64,000 bases of DNA. Origin: Candidatus Binatia bacterium (lineage in GTDB: Bacteria > Vulcanimicrobiota > Vulcanimicrobiia > Vulcanimicrobiales > Vulcanimicrobiaceae). Positions 6,334 through 12,992 of this stretch are shown piece by piece. The notes under the pieces are model-generated. The model had not been told where the DNA came from, made no database searches, and saw nothing but the letters and a program-made list of their open reading frames with translations. The stretch spans positions 630,501 to 694,500 of the forward strand of contig DATKHY010000003.1 of assembly GCA_035544215.1 (NCBI GenBank), written 5' to 3'. Numbering within the stretch: position 1 is the stretch's first letter; each line of letters opens with the position of its first letter. Position numbers and translations under genes: made by a program.

Positions 6334-6897
6334 ATGAGTACCACGAGCCAACCTTTCGTTTCCGACATCAAAGAACTGCGCCGCCGCGCCCAGGAGCAAA
6401 TGCAGCGCGGCGCCGTCACCGAGAATTACGGCGGCGACGTCCAGCAGACTATCGACTTGCTGCAGACCGCGCTGGCGACCGAGATCGTCTGCGTCTTGCG
6501 CTACACGATGCACAACATCGCGGCCGTCGGCATCGACAGCGAGAGCGTCAAGGAAGAGTTCGCCGAGCACGCGAGCGACGAGTACGACCACATGCAGAAG
6601 ATCGCGAACCGCATCAACCAGCTGGGCGGCACGCCGAATCTCAACCCTGAAGGCTTGCACACGCGCTCGGCCACCGAGTACGGTGACGCCCAGAAGCTGA
6701 TCGACATGATCAAGGAAAACCTCGTCGCAGAGCGCATCGCGGTAGAACACTATCGCGACCTGATCCGCTTCTTCGGCGAGAAAGACCCGACCACGCGCAT
6801 CATGCTCGAGGGCATCCTGGCGCAAGAGGAAGACCACGCCAACGACATGCACGACCTGCTCGTCGCGCACGAAGGGAAGCCGTTTCTGAAGAACTGA
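6334..6897 (+). CDS. Bacterioferritin-like ferritin
   Basis: A 187-residue four-helix ferritin-like protein, likely an iron-storage or iron-oxidising cage subunit in the cytoplasm. Diiron ligand pattern: Glu in helix A (LATEIVCVLRYT), ExxH in helix B (DEYDHMQK), Glu in helix C (LVAERIAVEHY) and ExxH in helix D (QEEDHAND). The methionine that binds haem in E. coli bacterioferritin (Glu-Met-Lys-His) is replaced by Tyr-Asp here, so haem binding in that mode is unlikely. Ribosome-binding site GTAGGGGTT precedes ATG 6334. It is divergent from hpnG. Confidence 0.88.
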   Translation: MSTTSQPFVSDIKELRRRAQEQMQRGAVTENYGGDVQQTIDLLQTALATEIVCVLRYTMHNIAAVGIDSESVKEEFAEHASDEYDHMQKIANRINQLGGTPNLNPEGLHTRSATEYGDAQKLIDMIKENLVAERIAVEHYRDLIRFFGEKDPTTRIMLEGILAQEEDHANDMHDLLVAHEGKPFLKN

Positions 6898-6928
6898 CGC
6901 CGTAGAGCGCCGGCCCAGCGGCACTGCG

Positions 6929-7211
6929 ATGCCACGGATGCTCGGCAAGCTTCCCCCGAAGCACGACCACCGGACGTTACTGTTCGAAGAATATCTCTCT
7001 CCCAAGCTTGCCACACCGCCGGCGCGAGATCGTGCCACCCTGGCGCGCAGTGGTGCAGTCGTATTACGCGATCACCGGCGGACGCGACGACGGCGCGTAT
7101 TGTCTGGACGTGCTCAAGCACTGGCGCGTCGCGGGCATCGGCGGCGATAGGATCGCGGCGTTCGCCCGGCGCGCCCTCGGGCGCGACCTCCAGCGGTTAG
7201 GCCACCGCTAG
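6929..7211 (+). pseudogene. Decayed remnant of a secreted/phage-like hypothetical protein family
   Basis: Two overlapping reading frames look like two ends of one protein family whose members start with a LGKLPPKHD..TL..YL motif and carry a later block with an aYsaiTG..DnG...LDVLkyWR..GIgG..I.AF pattern. Frame 2 from 6929 gives MLGKLPPKHDHRTLLFEEYL; frame 3 from about 7044 gives VVQSYYAITGGRDDGAY then LDVLKHWRVAGIGGDRIAAF. The middle of the protein is missing and the two parts are out of frame, so this reads as an internal deletion with a frameshift. I recall the family pattern from memory; no search was made. The rest of 6898-7254 holds only the GloVer gene's promoter and leader. Confidence 0.5.
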
Positions 7212-7254
7212 CGCCTGTACGATGATATACTGCGTGTCAAAGGAGGCTTTGCAC

Positions 7255-8505
7255 ATGGATAACATCACGCGCCACGTGCTCGGTATAGCGGCTGCAACGG
7301 TGTTGTTATCGGCGTGCAGCACGACCCTCAATGCGGCTCCCGGGGGATCCGGACCCGTTCCGAACGCGCTTTCGCCGCGCATACGGACCTTGTCGCAGTA
7401 TCACGTGCTCTACAACTTTCACGGCCCGGATGGCTCAGGTCCCATCGCGAGCTTAACCGCCGTCAACGGGACGCTGTATGGCACCACCAAAGAAGGCGGC
7501 ACGCACGGCTTGTCTCCGAAGAACGGCGTCGTCTTCAGCCTTACTACGGACGGCAAGGAACGCGTGCTGCACGACTTCCGCGTGATGGCACTAGACGGCA
7601 CCTACCCTATGGCGGGCCTGATCGAAGTAAACGGCACCCTCTACGGAACGACGGGACTCGGCAATCCGTACAACACGGGTACGGTCTACAGCATCACGAC
7701 GAGCGGTGAGGAACGGTTACTCTATAGCTTCGGCGAGTTCAGCCCCGCCGGTATGCAACCGTCGGCGAGCGTGACCAACCTCAACGGGATGCTATACGGC
7801 ACGACGAATTTTGGGGGCGATCGAGCCGCCGGAACGATCTTTAGCCTTAATGTGGACGGCACGGAGAAGATCGTTCACAGTTTCGGGCATCCCTTTCGCA
7901 GCGACGGTCAGATTCCGGGGTCGAGCTTAATCGCCGTCAACGGAACGCTCTACGGCACGACGTACGAAGGCGGCATCTACGATCGAGGCCACAACTGCGG
8001 GTCCACGCCGTGTCCCGGCGATGGAACCATCTTCAGCGTTACATCGGCCGGCAAGGTTCGCGTGCTGCATAGTTTCGGCAAGGGCTCCGATGGACTCTCC
8101 CCCGAGGCGGGCTTGATCGACGTCAAAGGCATGCTCTACGGTACGACCGCGCAAGGCGGGACGCACGGCTGCGGCACCGTCTTTAGCGTATCGGCGGCGG
8201 GTGCGGAGCGCGTGCTTCACAGCTTCGGCGCGAACTCGAGCGGCGGATGCCAACCGGCACCGGCCTTGATCGACGTCGGCGGCACCCTCTACGGAACGAC
8301 CGCCTACGGCGGCGCGTACAACCATCACGGCACGGTCTTCAGCATAACGACCGGCGGCGTAGAGCACGTTCTGCACAGCTTTGGCTCGGGAAGCGACGGG
8401 AAATATCCGGAGGCGGCTTTACTCGACCTGCATGGGACGCTTTACGGCACCACGGAAGCCGGCGGTACTGCGGGTCACGGCACGGTCTTTGCGATGACCC
8501 CGTAA
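7255..8505 (+). CDS. Lipoprotein with tandem GloVer repeats (TIGR03803 type)
   Basis: A 416-residue lipoprotein. The start at 7255 follows a strong AAAGGAGG, giving a signal peptide ending in LLSAC. The mature part is made of about eight repeats with the pattern VLHSFG..SDG..P..GLI.V.GTLYGTT..GG....GTVFS.T..G.E, the choice-of-anchor GloVer tandem repeat. The repeats probably form a beta-propeller or solenoid outside the membrane. No enzymatic motif is visible. A paralogue is at 59588-60856. Its role is unknown; this family is often present in many copies in soil bacteria. Confidence 0.9.
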   Translation: MDNITRHVLGIAAATVLLSACSTTLNAAPGGSGPVPNALSPRIRTLSQYHVLYNFHGPDGSGPIASLTAVNGTLYGTTKEGGTHGLSPKNGVVFSLTTDGKERVLHDFRVMALDGTYPMAGLIEVNGTLYGTTGLGNPYNTGTVYSITTSGEERLLYSFGEFSPAGMQPSASVTNLNGMLYGTTNFGGDRAAGTIFSLNVDGTEKIVHSFGHPFRSDGQIPGSSLIAVNGTLYGTTYEGGIYDRGHNCGSTPCPGDGTIFSVTSAGKVRVLHSFGKGSDGLSPEAGLIDVKGMLYGTTAQGGTHGCGTVFSVSAAGAERVLHSFGANSSGGCQPAPALIDVGGTLYGTTAYGGAYNHHGTVFSITTGGVEHVLHSFGSGSDGKYPEAALLDLHGTLYGTTEAGGTAGHGTVFAMTP

Positions 8506-8524
8506 CGTGAGATGCGCCGCCGCG

Positions 8525-11344
8525 TTAGCTGGGAGGCAGGGCGTTCAGCTTTTCACGCAGTGCCTGCGTCGACCCATGATCGGGTCCGAAGGCCTTCTCG
8601 TGGATCGCGAGGGCACGTGCGTACGCCGACTTTGCCTCTGCGAAGCGGCCCTGCGCCCCGTAGAGAGCCGCGAGGTCGCCTAGGATCGTCGCGACTTTGG
8701 GGTGATCCGGGCCGAGCGCTCCTTCTCGAATTGCCAACGCTCGCGTCACGAGCGGCTCAGCCTCTTCGTACCGCCCTTGGTCGCGGTAAACCAGCGCGAG
8801 ATCGTTCAGGGTACGCGAGACGTTGGGGTGGTCGCGGCCGAGTGTCTTCTCCCAAATGTCGAGCGCGCGTTTGTGCAGTCGTTCCGCTTCTTGGTAGCGG
8901 CCCTGCTTTTCGAACAAGACTGCAACGCCGTTCAGACCATACGCAACGTTGCGGTGGTCGGGGCCCAGCGTTTTCTCCCAAATCGTCAGCGCGCGCACTT
9001 GCAGCGGCTCCGCCTCTCCGTAGCGGCCGAGGTCGCGCAATACCGAGGCGAGGTTGTGCAAATTCAATGCAACGTAAGGGTGCTCTGGACCGAGAGCTTT
9101 TTCGCGAATGGCCACGGCGCGCGCATGCAACGGCTCCGCCTCCTCGTAACGCCCTTGGTCGCCGTACACTACCGCGAGGTTGCTGAGGCTATTCGCGACG
9201 TCGGGGTGGTCGGGGCCGAGGGCTTTCTCTCGAATCGCGAGGGCGCGTTTGTGCAGCTCCTCCGAGTCTCGGTAACGCCCCTGGTCCCAGTATACCGCTG
9301 CAAGACCATTTAGCGTATTCGCAACCTCGCAGTGATTCGTCCCAAGCGTCTGTTCCAAGATCGCCAGTGCGCGTGCGTGCAGCCGCTCGGCTTCGTCGTA
9401 GCGCCCTTGGTCCCAGTATACTCCCGCGAGGCCGTTCAGAGAATACGCGACCTCGGGGTGGGCAGGGCCGACAACCTTCTCTCGAATTGCCAGCGCGCGC
9501 GCGTGCAACGCTTCCGCCTCTTCGTAACGCGCTTGTCGCCAGCGCAGTGCCGCAAGGTTATTCAGCGCAATCACGGTTTCGGGGTGCTCCGAACCGCATG
9601 CGTTCTCAAACACCGCCAGCGCGAATTTCTCGAGCGCGTCGGGCGCGCTATAGTCGCCCCGTTCGCGAAGATACACTGCGCAGCGATCGGCGAGGCGGCC
9701 TGCGGAAATCGATTCCACATCATCTGGCAAGGCCTCGAGCGCGGCGCGCGCGTGGGGAAGAAGCCGCTCGCATCGCGGCCACGCCGCGAACTCGATATTG
9801 CCGAATTCGAGGTTAGGAAAGACCACTTCGGCTATCCCAACGGCGCACCGGTTCCATGCAGACTTGGCATCACCGATCAGGTCCCGCCCGACCAGCTGCA
9901 CGAGCCTGTGCATGCCGTAGGCCCGCGATGTTACCGCGAATGAGAGCAAGCACAGCTGATCGAGCGCGCCGAGCGCTTCGTCAACGCGCGTTGCGCTGAG
10001 AGCGCCGCGCAGGTCGAGCGCGGGCGCGGCGTCCGTGAGTACTGGGCGCAGCGCCTCCGGGTAGAGGTCAAGACTTTGCCGGAAGAGTTCGTCCGGGATC
10101 GTATCGGGCGCGAATCGCGCGGCGAAGCAAAACAGGGCCGCCGCCCCGGGTGCCTGTTGCTCGGCGCCGGCGACGGCCGTTTGAAACGTCGCGAAGACCG
10201 AACGAGGATACTCGGCGTGGCGCGGCGCGTTCGCCAGGTGCTGGGCGATATGGTCGAGATAGCGCTCGGGCGTTAGCATCCGCATCCCGCGCAGCGCCGC
10301 AGCGGCGTGCGAGAGCGCCAGCGGCAGCGCACCAAGCGCCTCGACGATCGCCTCGGCGTCCGATTCGCTCAGATCCACGCGGCCGGATTCGCCACGGAGG
10401 TACCCGATCGCCGCGTCCCGTGGCCAAACGTCGAGCGAAACGGCGCGAATATCGGAGCTCCACGCGGCCTTGCGCGACGTAACCAAAATGCGGGCGCCAC
10501 TGTGCGGCTGCCAGCTGCGCAGTAATCGCTCGTCTTCGAGATTGTCGAAGATCAGCAAGACCTGCTTGGCAAAGCAGCCCAACATCGAGCGCGTCACTTG
10601 CTGGGCGGCCGCGCGCCGATCGGCGAGCCGATCGAGCCCCCGCGTAAAGAGCGCTCCCAGCCGCAGCAGGCCTTCAATGACGCCGTCTTCTGTTTGCGCG
10701 TTCAGCCACCAGACGATCGAATACCGGTCGCGATTGCGCCAGGCGTACTCGCGCGCGATGGAGCTCTTACCTACGCCGCCCAAGCCGTACACGACGGCGA
10801 TGCTGTCTTCTCCGGTCAGCGCGGCGTCGAGCGCGTCGAGCTCTTCGTTCCGTCCGCTGAAGCCGGGCACCGGGCGGATCGCTTCGGGATCCACGATCGT
10901 TTCAGGAGCGCGCCAATATGGACCGCTCGCGGCCGTTTCGCGACGTTCCTCGCGAACCGCATCGAGGACGATCCCCCGAAGGAGCGCGGGATTGTCGCGG
11001 ATCGGGACGAGATCCCAATACGCGAGCCCGCTCAGCAGCCCGACCGGTTGGCACTCGACGACGCGCAGTAGGATTAGGCGCGAGGTCTTATTCAGGGGAT
11101 CACCGGCGAGGGCGTTCTGCCATTCGGCCTGGCAGTGATCGCTGCCCAGATACTCGGGCGAAAGAAGCGCAACGACCCGCGAGCCGCGGGCGAGCGCGGC
11201 GTGCATGCGCTCCATGAAATTCCGGTTGGCGAAATCCCACTGCTGCAGGGTGACGTCGTAACCCGACTCTTCTAAGATTCGGCCGATCTCCGCGGCGAAC
11301 GGCGCGTCCGCGCCGGCCCGGCTAATGAAGAGACTCTGCTCCAC
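8525..11344 (-). CDS. TIR / NB-ARC / tetratricopeptide STAND protein
   Basis: A 939-residue multidomain protein. Residues 1-125 form a TIR-like domain (SLFISRAGADAPFA, VVALLSPEYLGSDHCQAEW) with a candidate NADase glutamate at Glu74. Residues 155-450 form an NB-ARC ATPase with Walker A GLGGVGKSS (187-195), Walker B VLLIFDNL, the sensor-like ARILVTSR and GALPLALSHAA, then an MHRLVQ motif like the plant MHD. Eight TPRs of 42 residues fill about 590-922. Proteins of this design are signal-transduction STAND ATPases; several bacterial relatives act in anti-phage defence, where the TIR depletes NAD+. Here that is inference. No other known defence gene adjoins it. It lies 48 bases downstream of hpnA on the same strand. 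Confidence 0.9.
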   Translation of the reverse strand: MEQSLFISRAGADAPFAAEIGRILEESGYDVTLQQWDFANRNFMERMHAALARGSRVVALLSPEYLGSDHCQAEWQNALAGDPLNKTSRLILLRVVECQPVGLLSGLAYWDLVPIRDNPALLRGIVLDAVREERRETAASGPYWRAPETIVDPEAIRPVPGFSGRNEELDALDAALTGEDSIAVVYGLGGVGKSSIAREYAWRNRDRYSIVWWLNAQTEDGVIEGLLRLGALFTRGLDRLADRRAAAQQVTRSMLGCFAKQVLLIFDNLEDERLLRSWQPHSGARILVTSRKAAWSSDIRAVSLDVWPRDAAIGYLRGESGRVDLSESDAEAIVEALGALPLALSHAAAALRGMRMLTPERYLDHIAQHLANAPRHAEYPRSVFATFQTAVAGAEQQAPGAAALFCFAARFAPDTIPDELFRQSLDLYPEALRPVLTDAAPALDLRGALSATRVDEALGALDQLCLLSFAVTSRAYGMHRLVQLVGRDLIGDAKSAWNRCAVGIAEVVFPNLEFGNIEFAAWPRCERLLPHARAALEALPDDVESISAGRLADRCAVYLRERGDYSAPDALEKFALAVFENACGSEHPETVIALNNLAALRWRQARYEEAEALHARALAIREKVVGPAHPEVAYSLNGLAGVYWDQGRYDEAERLHARALAILEQTLGTNHCEVANTLNGLAAVYWDQGRYRDSEELHKRALAIREKALGPDHPDVANSLSNLAVVYGDQGRYEEAEPLHARAVAIREKALGPEHPYVALNLHNLASVLRDLGRYGEAEPLQVRALTIWEKTLGPDHRNVAYGLNGVAVLFEKQGRYQEAERLHKRALDIWEKTLGRDHPNVSRTLNDLALVYRDQGRYEEAEPLVTRALAIREGALGPDHPKVATILGDLAALYGAQGRFAEAKSAYARALAIHEKAFGPDHGSTQALREKLNALPPS
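8579..9586 (-). repeat. Eight tandem 126-bp units encoding TPRs
   Basis: The 3' part of the STAND gene is eight head-to-tail units of 126 bases (42 residues) with consensus HP.VA..LN.LA..Y.DQGRYEEAE.LH.RALAIREK.LGPD. The units are similar enough in protein and DNA to suggest recent expansion by recombination. Copy number may vary between strains. Confidence 0.85.
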
Positions 11345-11392
11345 GGCGGAGTTCTAGCGCGCAAAGGCAGGGTTTCCCCCCTTACTGCCGCG

Positions 11393-12373
11393 TCAGCGGC
11401 GCTCGACGTGGCCGTTCTCGCGATACCACGCGACGGCGCGGTCGATCGCGTCGCGCACCGGTGTCGGGACGTACCCGAGCTCGCGCCGCGCCTCGTCGGA
11501 ATCGGCGTACATTAGCTCGCGCGACATGCGCACGCCCTCCAGCGGAACGTTCGGAACCGCGCGCGGATTCACAAGACAGCGCAGTTCGTCGGCATAGCCC
11601 GCGGCGAGCGCGAGCGCATAAGGCGCGCGGCGGCGCGGCATCGGTTTGCCGGTGGCCTGCGCGAGCATCTCCCAGATTTCATCCAGGCTGAGGTTTTCGC
11701 CGCCTAAGACGTAACGCTCGCCGACGCGGCCCGACTGCAGCGCTGCGACGTGCGCGCGAGCGACGTCCTCGACCGCGACCAAATTCATTCCGCCGCTGAG
11801 CGGCGCTTTCGCGACAATGCGCCCGCGGAGAAAGTCGAGCACGAGCTTTCCGGTCGGGGTCGGCTTCCAATCTCCAGGGCCGATCGGCGCGGTCGGCAAC
11901 AACGCGACGACGGGCGCACGGCCGGCGAACGCCGCGCGCTCCTGCTCCAGCTTCGAGCGATGATACCCGCTATGCGCGTGACCGAGCGTCGCAGAGCTCG
12001 ACGTGAGCACGACCCGTTCTACGCCGCCAAGATGTGCCGCGAGCATGAGGCTCGCCGTTCCCTGCACGTTGACCGCGTGCAGCGCGCGGCGGTCGCGCGG
12101 CGCGAACGAGTACAGCGCGGCGCAGTGCACGAGGTAGCGGCATCCGTCGAGCGCATGCGCGAAGTCGCCGACGTTGCGCAGGTCGCCCTCCACCCACTCG
12201 GCGCCGCCGTCTGCCGCAGCCTGTCCTGAGCGAGCGGAGCGAGTCGAAGGGCCTCGTGCCAAGGCGCGCACGGCGTAGCCCGCCGCGAGGAGCTCGCGAA
12301 GGACGTGCGACCCCACGAAGCCGCTCGCTCCGGTGAGGAAGACGCGGTCGCCGCGAGAAAGGGAAGTCACCAT
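11393..12373 (-). CDS. hpnA: Hopanoid-associated sugar epimerase / NAD-dependent epimerase HpnA
   Basis: A 326-residue short-chain dehydrogenase of the extended epimerase class. Rossmann motif VFLTGASGFVGSHV at the N-terminus, SSSATLGH around the catalytic serine, and YHRSK (YxxxK). The later ALLPTAPIGPGDWKPTPTGKLVLDFL closely fits HpnA-type proteins, named for their place in hopanoid clusters; the exact reaction is unsettled. The ATG at 12373 is preferred because the Rossmann strand follows within ten residues. It overlaps the divergent start at 12372 within CATG. A dispersed repeat is read in frame inside it (12220-12251), adding residues after the VRALARG strand. Confidence 0.82.
   Translation of the reverse strand: MVTSLSRGDRVFLTGASGFVGSHVLRELLAAGYAVRALARGPSTRSARSGQAAADGGAEWVEGDLRNVGDFAHALDGCRYLVHCAALYSFAPRDRRALHAVNVQGTASLMLAAHLGGVERVVLTSSSATLGHAHSGYHRSKLEQERAAFAGRAPVVALLPTAPIGPGDWKPTPTGKLVLDFLRGRIVAKAPLSGGMNLVAVEDVARAHVAALQSGRVGERYVLGGENLSLDEIWEMLAQATGKPMPRRRAPYALALAAGYADELRCLVNPRAVPNVPLEGVRMSRELMYADSDEARRELGYVPTPVRDAIDRAVAWYRENGHVERR
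12220..12251. repeat. Dispersed palindromic repeat inside hpnA
   Basis: Contains CTGTCCTGAGCGAGCGGAG and GAGTCGAAGGG, the same element family as at 30047-30235. Within hpnA it is translated as part of PSTRSARSGQAAADGG, between the second strand of the Rossmann fold and the WVEGDLRN motif, where relatives normally have a short loop. The insertion keeps the frame. Confidence 0.7.
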
Positions 12374-12992
12374 GAAGCTCTCACGGATGGCAATTGCGGC
12401 AATCGGTGCCGTTTTCTTTTCGGCGTGCGGGGGCGGAGCCGGCACGTCTGCGGTCGCACCGCCTGCATCGGCGCCCTTCGACTCCGCTCAGGGTGACATG
12501 GCCGGGAGCATCGCTCCGGATGAAGTGTCGGCCGCGGCGTATTGCAGGAAGACCGGAGGCGAGATCGAGACGCGGCGCCCGGTCTACGGCAGCAACGGAT
12601 CCAAGCTGCTCTTTCTCGCCGGCAAGCGCGTTTTCTGTCAGTACACGAAGAAGTCGGACGGCTCGCGCATCCACATTCTGCTCAGCACGCTCTACACGAC
12701 GAAACCAACCCTGGCGGCGCTGGCGTACATCCTCAAGCCCCCGATGGGCTCGTGCAACGGCAATCCGGCGTCGTGCTACTGCTCGTTCCTCGGCGGCTCG
12801 GATCAGTTCGGCGGAACGAACGGCGCGGGGGGCGGCTGGTACAAGAAGAACGGCGTCGATCAAACGCTGGAGGCGTGCATCTTCCCCGACGAGTCGTCAA
12901 TCGACTCTTGGGGGCTTGCCTATCACTCGCACGGCATCATTCGCGGCATCAATCTCGACAAGGTGATGCGGTACAAGTATCCGGGCGGATGA
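12372..12992 (+). CDS. Small secreted lipoprotein of unknown function
   Basis: A 206-residue protein with a signal peptide and lipobox (AVFFSACGGG). RBS AAAGGGA precedes ATG 12372. The mature part contains several cysteines (YCRKTGG, RVFCQY, GSCNGNPASCYCSFLGG, EACIFPD), suggesting disulfides. Its C-terminus SIDSWGLAYHSHGIIRG is distinctive, but I cannot name the family. Residues after the lipobox (PFDSAQGDMAG) come from the dispersed repeat at 12474-12500. The stop overlaps the GNAT start by ATGA, so the two genes form an operon. Confidence 0.8.
   Translation: MKLSRMAIAAIGAVFFSACGGGAGTSAVAPPASAPFDSAQGDMAGSIAPDEVSAAAYCRKTGGEIETRRPVYGSNGSKLLFLAGKRVFCQYTKKSDGSRIHILLSTLYTTKPTLAALAYILKPPMGSCNGNPASCYCSFLGGSDQFGGTNGAGGGWYKKNGVDQTLEACIFPDESSIDSWGLAYHSHGIIRGINLDKVMRYKYPGG
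12474..12500. repeat. Dispersed repeat inside the lipoprotein gene
   Basis: CCCTTCGACTCCGCTCAGGG followed by TGACATG. It is translated as PFDSAQGDM just after the lipobox, in the flexible tether where an insertion is harmless. Same element family as at 12220, 16902, 17142, 19450 and 30047. Confidence 0.75.

Follow-up and report, generated by a model that had tools for sequence, protein, structure and literature searches.

Proteins in which a TIR domain is joined to an AP-ATPase and a TPR array are already known from bacteria, where they have been described in the VMAP/FxSxx conflict systems (PMC7159879). Several other STAND proteins share parts of this plan. Plant TIR-NLRs have a TIR domain, an NB-ARC domain with an MHD-like motif and C-terminal repeats, the last being LRRs. 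Nephrocystin-3 (NPHP3), with its DUF4062-NACHT domains, and the bacterial DUF4062 proteins (Swarozyc) unite a NADase-type front end, a STAND NTPase and TPRs of the kinesin-light-chain (KLC)/NPHP3 type, and DUF4062 itself has been described as an antiphage NADase resembling TIRs (PMC13174449). The antiphage Avs and bNACHT STANDs likewise follow a plan of effector, NTPase and repeat sensor, and a STAND with a TPR sensor has been solved (PDB 6mfv). Among two-component systems, Thoeris TIRs (ThsB) signal to SLOG effectors (ThsA).

The gene considered here lies in a 64,000-nucleotide stretch of DNA (the window), which belongs to a genome of 3.23 Mb that is 97% complete and whose relatives are labelled Candidatus Eremiobacterota. 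It is a single unbroken open frame (Table 1) and places its product among the bacterial TIR-NB-ARC-TPR proteins (AP-ATPase STANDs), having a TIR with the Glu, the NB-ARC motifs and a C-terminal TPR array. The Pfam matches are TIR_2 (residues 6-113, E 3e-22), AAA_16/NB-ARC (residues 163-357, E 1e-5 to 3e-5) and TPR_12/TPR_10/TPR_NPHP3 (residues ~581-922, E 1e-88 to 1e-123). The NB-ARC motif set is complete, comprising the P-loop GLGGVGKSS, Walker B LLIFDN, sensor LVTSR, a GLPL-like ALPLAL and YGMHRLVQ. E74 is located in SPEYLGSDHCQAEW of the window protein, where TIR NADases have their catalytic Glu, and the alignment shows it and all NB-ARC motifs to be conserved across intact TIR-bearing copies. 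As judged from these features, the protein combines an intact TIR, in which the predicted catalytic Glu is kept, with an equally intact nucleotide-binding switch that has an MHD-like motif, and with a superhelix of KLC-type TPRs. The order of TIR, NB-ARC with an MHR/MHD-like motif and TPRs proposed in an earlier note on this DNA is thus borne out by Pfam and motifs.

Table 1. Positions in the window of the STAND gene, its parts and its flanks.
Feature	Position	Strand	Basis or remark
Bacterioferritin-like gene (bfr), left flank of insertion	6334..6897	(+)	synteny
Probable lineage-specific insertion between bfr and hpnA	6898..11392	(.)	short frames, repeat gene 7222-8505 and STAND gene; synteny of relatives
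STAND gene, 939 aa TIR-NB-ARC-TPR, GTG start	8525..11344	(-)	open frame, Pfam, paralogue alignment
Eight 42-aa kinesin-light-chain-type TPRs, residues 581-916	8597..9604	(-)	Pfam, repeat alignment, model
ARC2/winged-helix region, residues 361-490	9875..10264	(-)	alignment
MHR (MHD-like motif, HRLVQ), residues 478-480	9905..9913	(-)	xHRLVQ kept in nearly all relatives
NB-ARC/AP-ATPase domain, residues 160-360	10265..10867	(-)	NB-ARC and AAA_16 matches; family profile matches AfsR STAND
P-loop GLGGVGKSS with K193	10760..10786	(-)	sequence; kept in all full-length relatives
TIR domain, residues 1-140	10925..11344	(-)	TIR_2 match, TIR fold in model
E74, predicted catalytic Glu of TIR	11123..11125	(-)	invariant in the family's intact TIRs, including Prosthecochloris and Methylobacterium relatives
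hpnA, right flank	11393..12445	(-)	upstream of STAND gene, same strand, 48 bp gap

AlphaFold models the TPRs with a pLDDT of ~90 and the TIR domain with 72.6 (pTM 0.72); the NB-ARC model is too poor for interpretation. The best structural matches of the TIR model are the TIRs of BtTir, TcpB, PdTIR, SARM1, AbTir and SPARTA (Z 8.6-10.4), of which BtTir, AbTir, SARM1 and SPARTA are NADases. Because unrelated Rossmann folds score up to Z 9.2 against the same model, these matches on their own support a TIR fold rather than prove it. The domain could instead be a mere scaffold that recruits other TIR proteins and has no NADase activity, since the best solved sequence match of its profile is a scaffold TIR, that of MyD88, if only at an E-value of 0.02. 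This appears improbable, however: MyD88 has no Glu at the aligned position, neither E74 nor the residues around it vary among intact copies, and the TIR is the most conserved part of the protein.

With the VMAP/FxSxx proteins the window protein shares its domain order and its NB-ARC-TPR family, scoring 400.7 bits against the NCBIfam model FxsT (NF040586; curated cut-off, 300 bits). Taken at its name, this model would make it the FxsT of a FxSxx-COOH peptide-processing system, which can hardly be credited. The model also matches trypsin-, cyclase- and SEFIR-fused proteins, and the genome holds neither an FxsB radical SAM protein nor an HExxH peptide-modification protein above cut-off. The window gene is solitary: genes for FxsB, an HExxH protein or other members of a ternary system were not found beside it. 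A search for FxsA precursors, with 0 matches in the genome, was equally silent in control genomes and so is uninformative. The FxSxx name should therefore not be carried over to this gene, FxsB and the HExxH protein not having been found.

The layout of effector, switch and repeat sensor, said in the earlier note to mirror plant TIR-NLRs, does recur here, but KLC-type TPRs stand in place of the LRR sensor, and the protein is bacterial and without known EDS1-type partners. The nearest eukaryotic layout is that of nephrocystin-3 rather than of a plant NLR, according to domain descriptions (PMC13174449) and to the match of the window TPRs to PF24885, a family named after nephrocystin-3 TPRs. It differs in its front end, a TIR_2 and not a DUF4062, and in its NTPase, that of NPHP3 being NACHT-type (PMC13174449). 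From Avs and bNACHT it is set apart by an NTPase that is NB-ARC rather than NACHT or Avs; PADLOC (PADLOC-DB 2.0.0, 2023) gives no Avs or bNACHT match, nor one to any specific defence-system model, but a generic TPR model only. PDB 6mfv is found by Foldseek and has the same TPR-sensor STAND plan, although the whole-chain match is weak (rmsd 20.4 A) and the comparison excludes the effector end. PADLOC matches to pVip among the window proteins were set aside, since they most likely represent the hopanoid cluster's radical-SAM proteins.

The eight TPRs keep a strict 42-aa register, and their kinesin-light-chain/nephrocystin-3 type is supported by both sequence and model. They had been described as near-identical: the count of eight is correct, but pairwise identity is 45-69% in protein and 63-71% in DNA. 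Work on fungal NLRs draws the line for high internal conservation at 85% (PMC4986451), and repeats more than 85% identical, as in the HET-E type, are not seen here. A near-identical, fast-recombining array was accordingly rejected. The suggestion that the copy number of such repeats varies is weakened rather than lost, as repeat number does range from 5 to 13 among relatives while internal identity is moderate. Since all eight repeats find their nearest match within the window protein itself, an older re-amplification is possible. Compared with the paralogues, no positive selection is seen in the TPRs, and dN/dS of ~0.14-0.27 in all parts of the protein indicates purifying selection, although dS close to or over 1 makes these values rough. 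Relatives are most like the window protein in the TIR (69-79% identity), less so in the NB-ARC (50-69%) and least in the TPRs (47-53%), a gradient that suggests a constant effector and a divergent sensor.

Although the gene stands alone locally, as the note had it, the same genome contains three further full TIR-NB-ARC-TPR genes, 58-62% identical to the window protein, and an NB-ARC-TPR gene with a trypsin-like front end lies 9 kb past the window end (L005; G000:C3:703312-705357). The genome has eight TIR_2 matches in total, of which one belongs to a different STAND family whose ATPase is AfsR-like. Across the phylum, 13 of 148 genomes match at E<1e-30, a patchy distribution, and copies in G016 and G020 appear decayed or split. 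Plasmids from Chlorobiota, Alphaproteobacteria and Actinomycetota also carry related TIR-NB-ARC-TPR genes; none was found on phage or viral contigs. A claim of uniqueness cannot be upheld given four copies in one genome, plasmid-borne relatives in other phyla and a published TIR-AP-ATPase-TPR group (PMC7159879). Invariant presence in every core genome, which would have counted against the earlier proposal, is not seen: matches at this threshold come from those 13 genomes, and the gene is absent beside hpnA in 12/12 relatives. The window gene is accessory, as expected of a conflict gene. Because TIR-AP-ATPase-TPR proteins have been published (PMC7159879), the FxsT model covers the core and plasmid relatives are known, the layout is not new; the gene adds a solitary member from an unstudied phylum, and its value rests in its family. 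One paralogue (L004; L061:8849-11536(-)) lacks 11-12 TIR residues around QQWDFANRNFMER and keeps the Glu; all other intact TIRs of the family keep this segment, and the copy concerned is the one that adjoins the SLOG-SLATT gene discussed below. Elsewhere in the genome (L109:1470-9472; G000:C7, ~538-547 kb), a small stand-alone TIR gene lies near DNA methyltransferase-like and MazG-like genes in a region that looks like a defence island.

The 12 relatives are those with a syntenic hopanoid/dxs locus. In eight of them bfr and hpnA lie at most ~40 bp apart, and in three bfr is missing there. In the closest relative, G005 (hpnA 79-82% identical), the gap between the two genes is occupied by a short ORF together with a gene for a DUF6036 nucleotidyltransferase (L063:3155-3972, G005:C12), perhaps a toxin-antitoxin pair. 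Given the absence in all 12, the near contact of bfr and hpnA in eight and the other genes in G005, the window gene and the repeat gene beside it are probably a lineage-specific insertion of ~4.5 kb at a variable site in an otherwise conserved cluster. The L004 paralogue is also absent from the matching place in G005. Base composition gives no sign of foreign origin (GC 65.0% in the STAND gene vs 65.3% in the window), no tRNA lies within the window and no convincing repeats flank the insertion ends. The paralogues, too, sit closely behind other genes, 92 bp after rpoC or 4-14 bp after others, and because the window gene follows hpnA on the same strand at a similarly short distance, all may depend on the promoters of these neighbours for transcription. 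In the gap to hpnA a promoter scan, uninformative for this phylum, detected neither a sigma-70-like site nor a terminator. The adjoining gene at 7222-8505(+) encodes a secreted-looking protein of 'LYGTT..GG' repeats; an association with the STAND gene was rejected, this 'YGTT' family having 50-159 matches per genome. Short overlapping frames after bfr (6929-7208(+)), without a Pfam match, may be one small broken gene.

The NB-ARC-TPR core bears several front ends, namely TIR, class III cyclase, XRE HTH, SARP-like, trypsin-like and SEFIR, and a tree of the NB-ARC domains places cyclase and HTH cores among those with a TIR, at support values of 0.89-0.91 and with the deep nodes weak. Conversely, G102 has the same TIR (~70% identical) fused to a different, AfsR-type STAND core. 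On plasmid pVL1_5 of Methylobacterium indicum (L116:2472-8799), a DUF4062-NB-ARC-TPR and a TIR-NB-ARC-TPR gene lie on either side of a SLATT gene; the two agree at 99.6% in NB-ARC DNA and at 76% in the TPRs, which points to a recent exchange or recombination of the switch region. This exchange of DUF4062 and TIR on one core also links the window family to the DUF4062 proteins. A further relative, on the Prosthecochloris plasmid pPAES01 (L115), has a diversity-generating retroelement (Avd and reverse transcriptase) at a distance of ~5 kb. In one little-studied phylum the same switch bears six or more front ends, one TIR is joined to two different switches and empty insertion sites can be named. 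Because such exchanges and empty sites are known in one phylum, domain swaps could directly test whether the TIR or the switch decides the outcome.

Taken together, the window protein is somewhat more probably than otherwise an NLR-like STAND/AP-ATPase switch, triggered by a protein or peptide, with a predicted NAD+-cleaving TIR and most likely directed against phage or mobile elements. In the resting state, ADP and the TPR arm would together keep the protein closed. Binding of a trigger protein or peptide in the TPR groove would allow the NB-ARC to swap ADP for ATP and then to oligomerise, and the clustered TIRs would switch on NAD+ cleavage. Either NAD+ would be depleted, so that the cell stops growing or dies, or an ADPR-type signal would reach a second effector. 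By a slight balance, defence is favoured as the likeliest use, because the pattern is accessory, multi-copy and effector-swapping. This reading is supported by the integrity of domains and motifs, the retention of E74, a TIR model resembling NADase TIRs and purifying selection, to which are added the identity gradient, the patchy distribution (13/148), the absence at the hpnA site (12/12), the effector swaps and the plasmid relatives. Against it count the purely generic PADLOC hit, the lack of positive selection in the TPRs, the poor NB-ARC model and the sister cores with cyclase, HTH and SARP front ends, which suggest that the same switch serves ordinary signalling in sister proteins. Within the window, no convincing defence island is seen, the gene sitting behind a housekeeping gene.

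Because the same core bears cyclase and DNA-binding front ends, a physiological role is a serious rival. The protein would then be a signalling STAND of stress or development, responding to a peptide or protein from within the cell and using its TIR products to tune metabolism, like the AfsR- and cyclase-type STANDs. The AfsR match of the NB-ARC profile and the location of the genes behind hpnA and rpoC agree with this. Such a role is nevertheless unlikely: most relatives lack the gene and its place is not fixed, decaying copies are present, and known bacterial TIR front ends are mostly immune.

If the defence switch acts through a second effector, a candidate is encoded elsewhere in the genome. 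A gene at L061:11488-13110(-) (G000:C4:21490-23109), overlapping the L004 paralogue, encodes a protein with a SLOG domain and, behind it, four predicted membrane helices (SLATT-like); its homologues match DUF4231/SLATT_3 and, more weakly, YAcAr-SLOG. As in Thoeris, a TIR enzyme is coupled to a SLOG protein at some related loci, but the partner there is SLOG-4TM (SLATT) and not SIR2-SLOG or Macro. The window gene itself has no such neighbour and no adjacent ThsA, being flanked by hpnA and the repeat gene. Thirteen of 41 related genomes carry SLOG-SLATT, with a TIR gene within ~3 kb in 10 (0.05 expected by chance); with syntenic cases merged, six of nine lie near a TIR (p ~3e-13). These TIR partners differ, being TIR-STAND, SEFIR-STAND, a TIR that we read from its sequence as CHASE2-like, and a TIR with nSTAND1-WD40. 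Outside the 41 genomes, another SLOG-SLATT adjoins the G102 TIR-STAND, and because the same TIR there sits on a different core, the partner travels with the TIR.

The window TIR could accordingly make a diffusible ADPR-type signal that opens the SLOG-SLATT effector at C4, one executor being common to several TIR-STANDs. This is a tentative proposal, to be given a little more weight than a physiological role. Besides the linkage to TIR genes, it draws on the overlap with L004, on the G102 case and on the SLATT gene between the two Methylobacterium STANDs, and all five of the 41 genomes with a TIR- or SEFIR-STAND have SLOG-SLATT (Fisher p 0.0017, uncorrected for kinship). Linkage of SLATT with TIR, read as an ADPR-gated membrane effector, is also a published prediction (PMC9503650). 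Most TIR-STANDs of the family, however, lack a SLOG-SLATT neighbour, as the window gene does; G005 has SLOG-SLATT at the site that matches the L004 pair, without the STAND, and L004 itself, the paralogue adjoining SLOG-SLATT in the genome of the window, is the one with the shortened TIR. A fuller scheme, in which several TIR-STAND sensors with their own TPR arms and different upstream genes send one NAD-derived signal to a single SLOG-SLATT executor, and front ends and partners are exchanged by recombination, is decidedly less likely still. If true, the shared executor would be a bacterial counterpart and model of sensor-helper NLR networks. In relatives of the same class (L094-L097), SLOG-SLATT, TIR and nSTAND1-WD40 genes form a conserved cluster, joined in some by a patatin gene.
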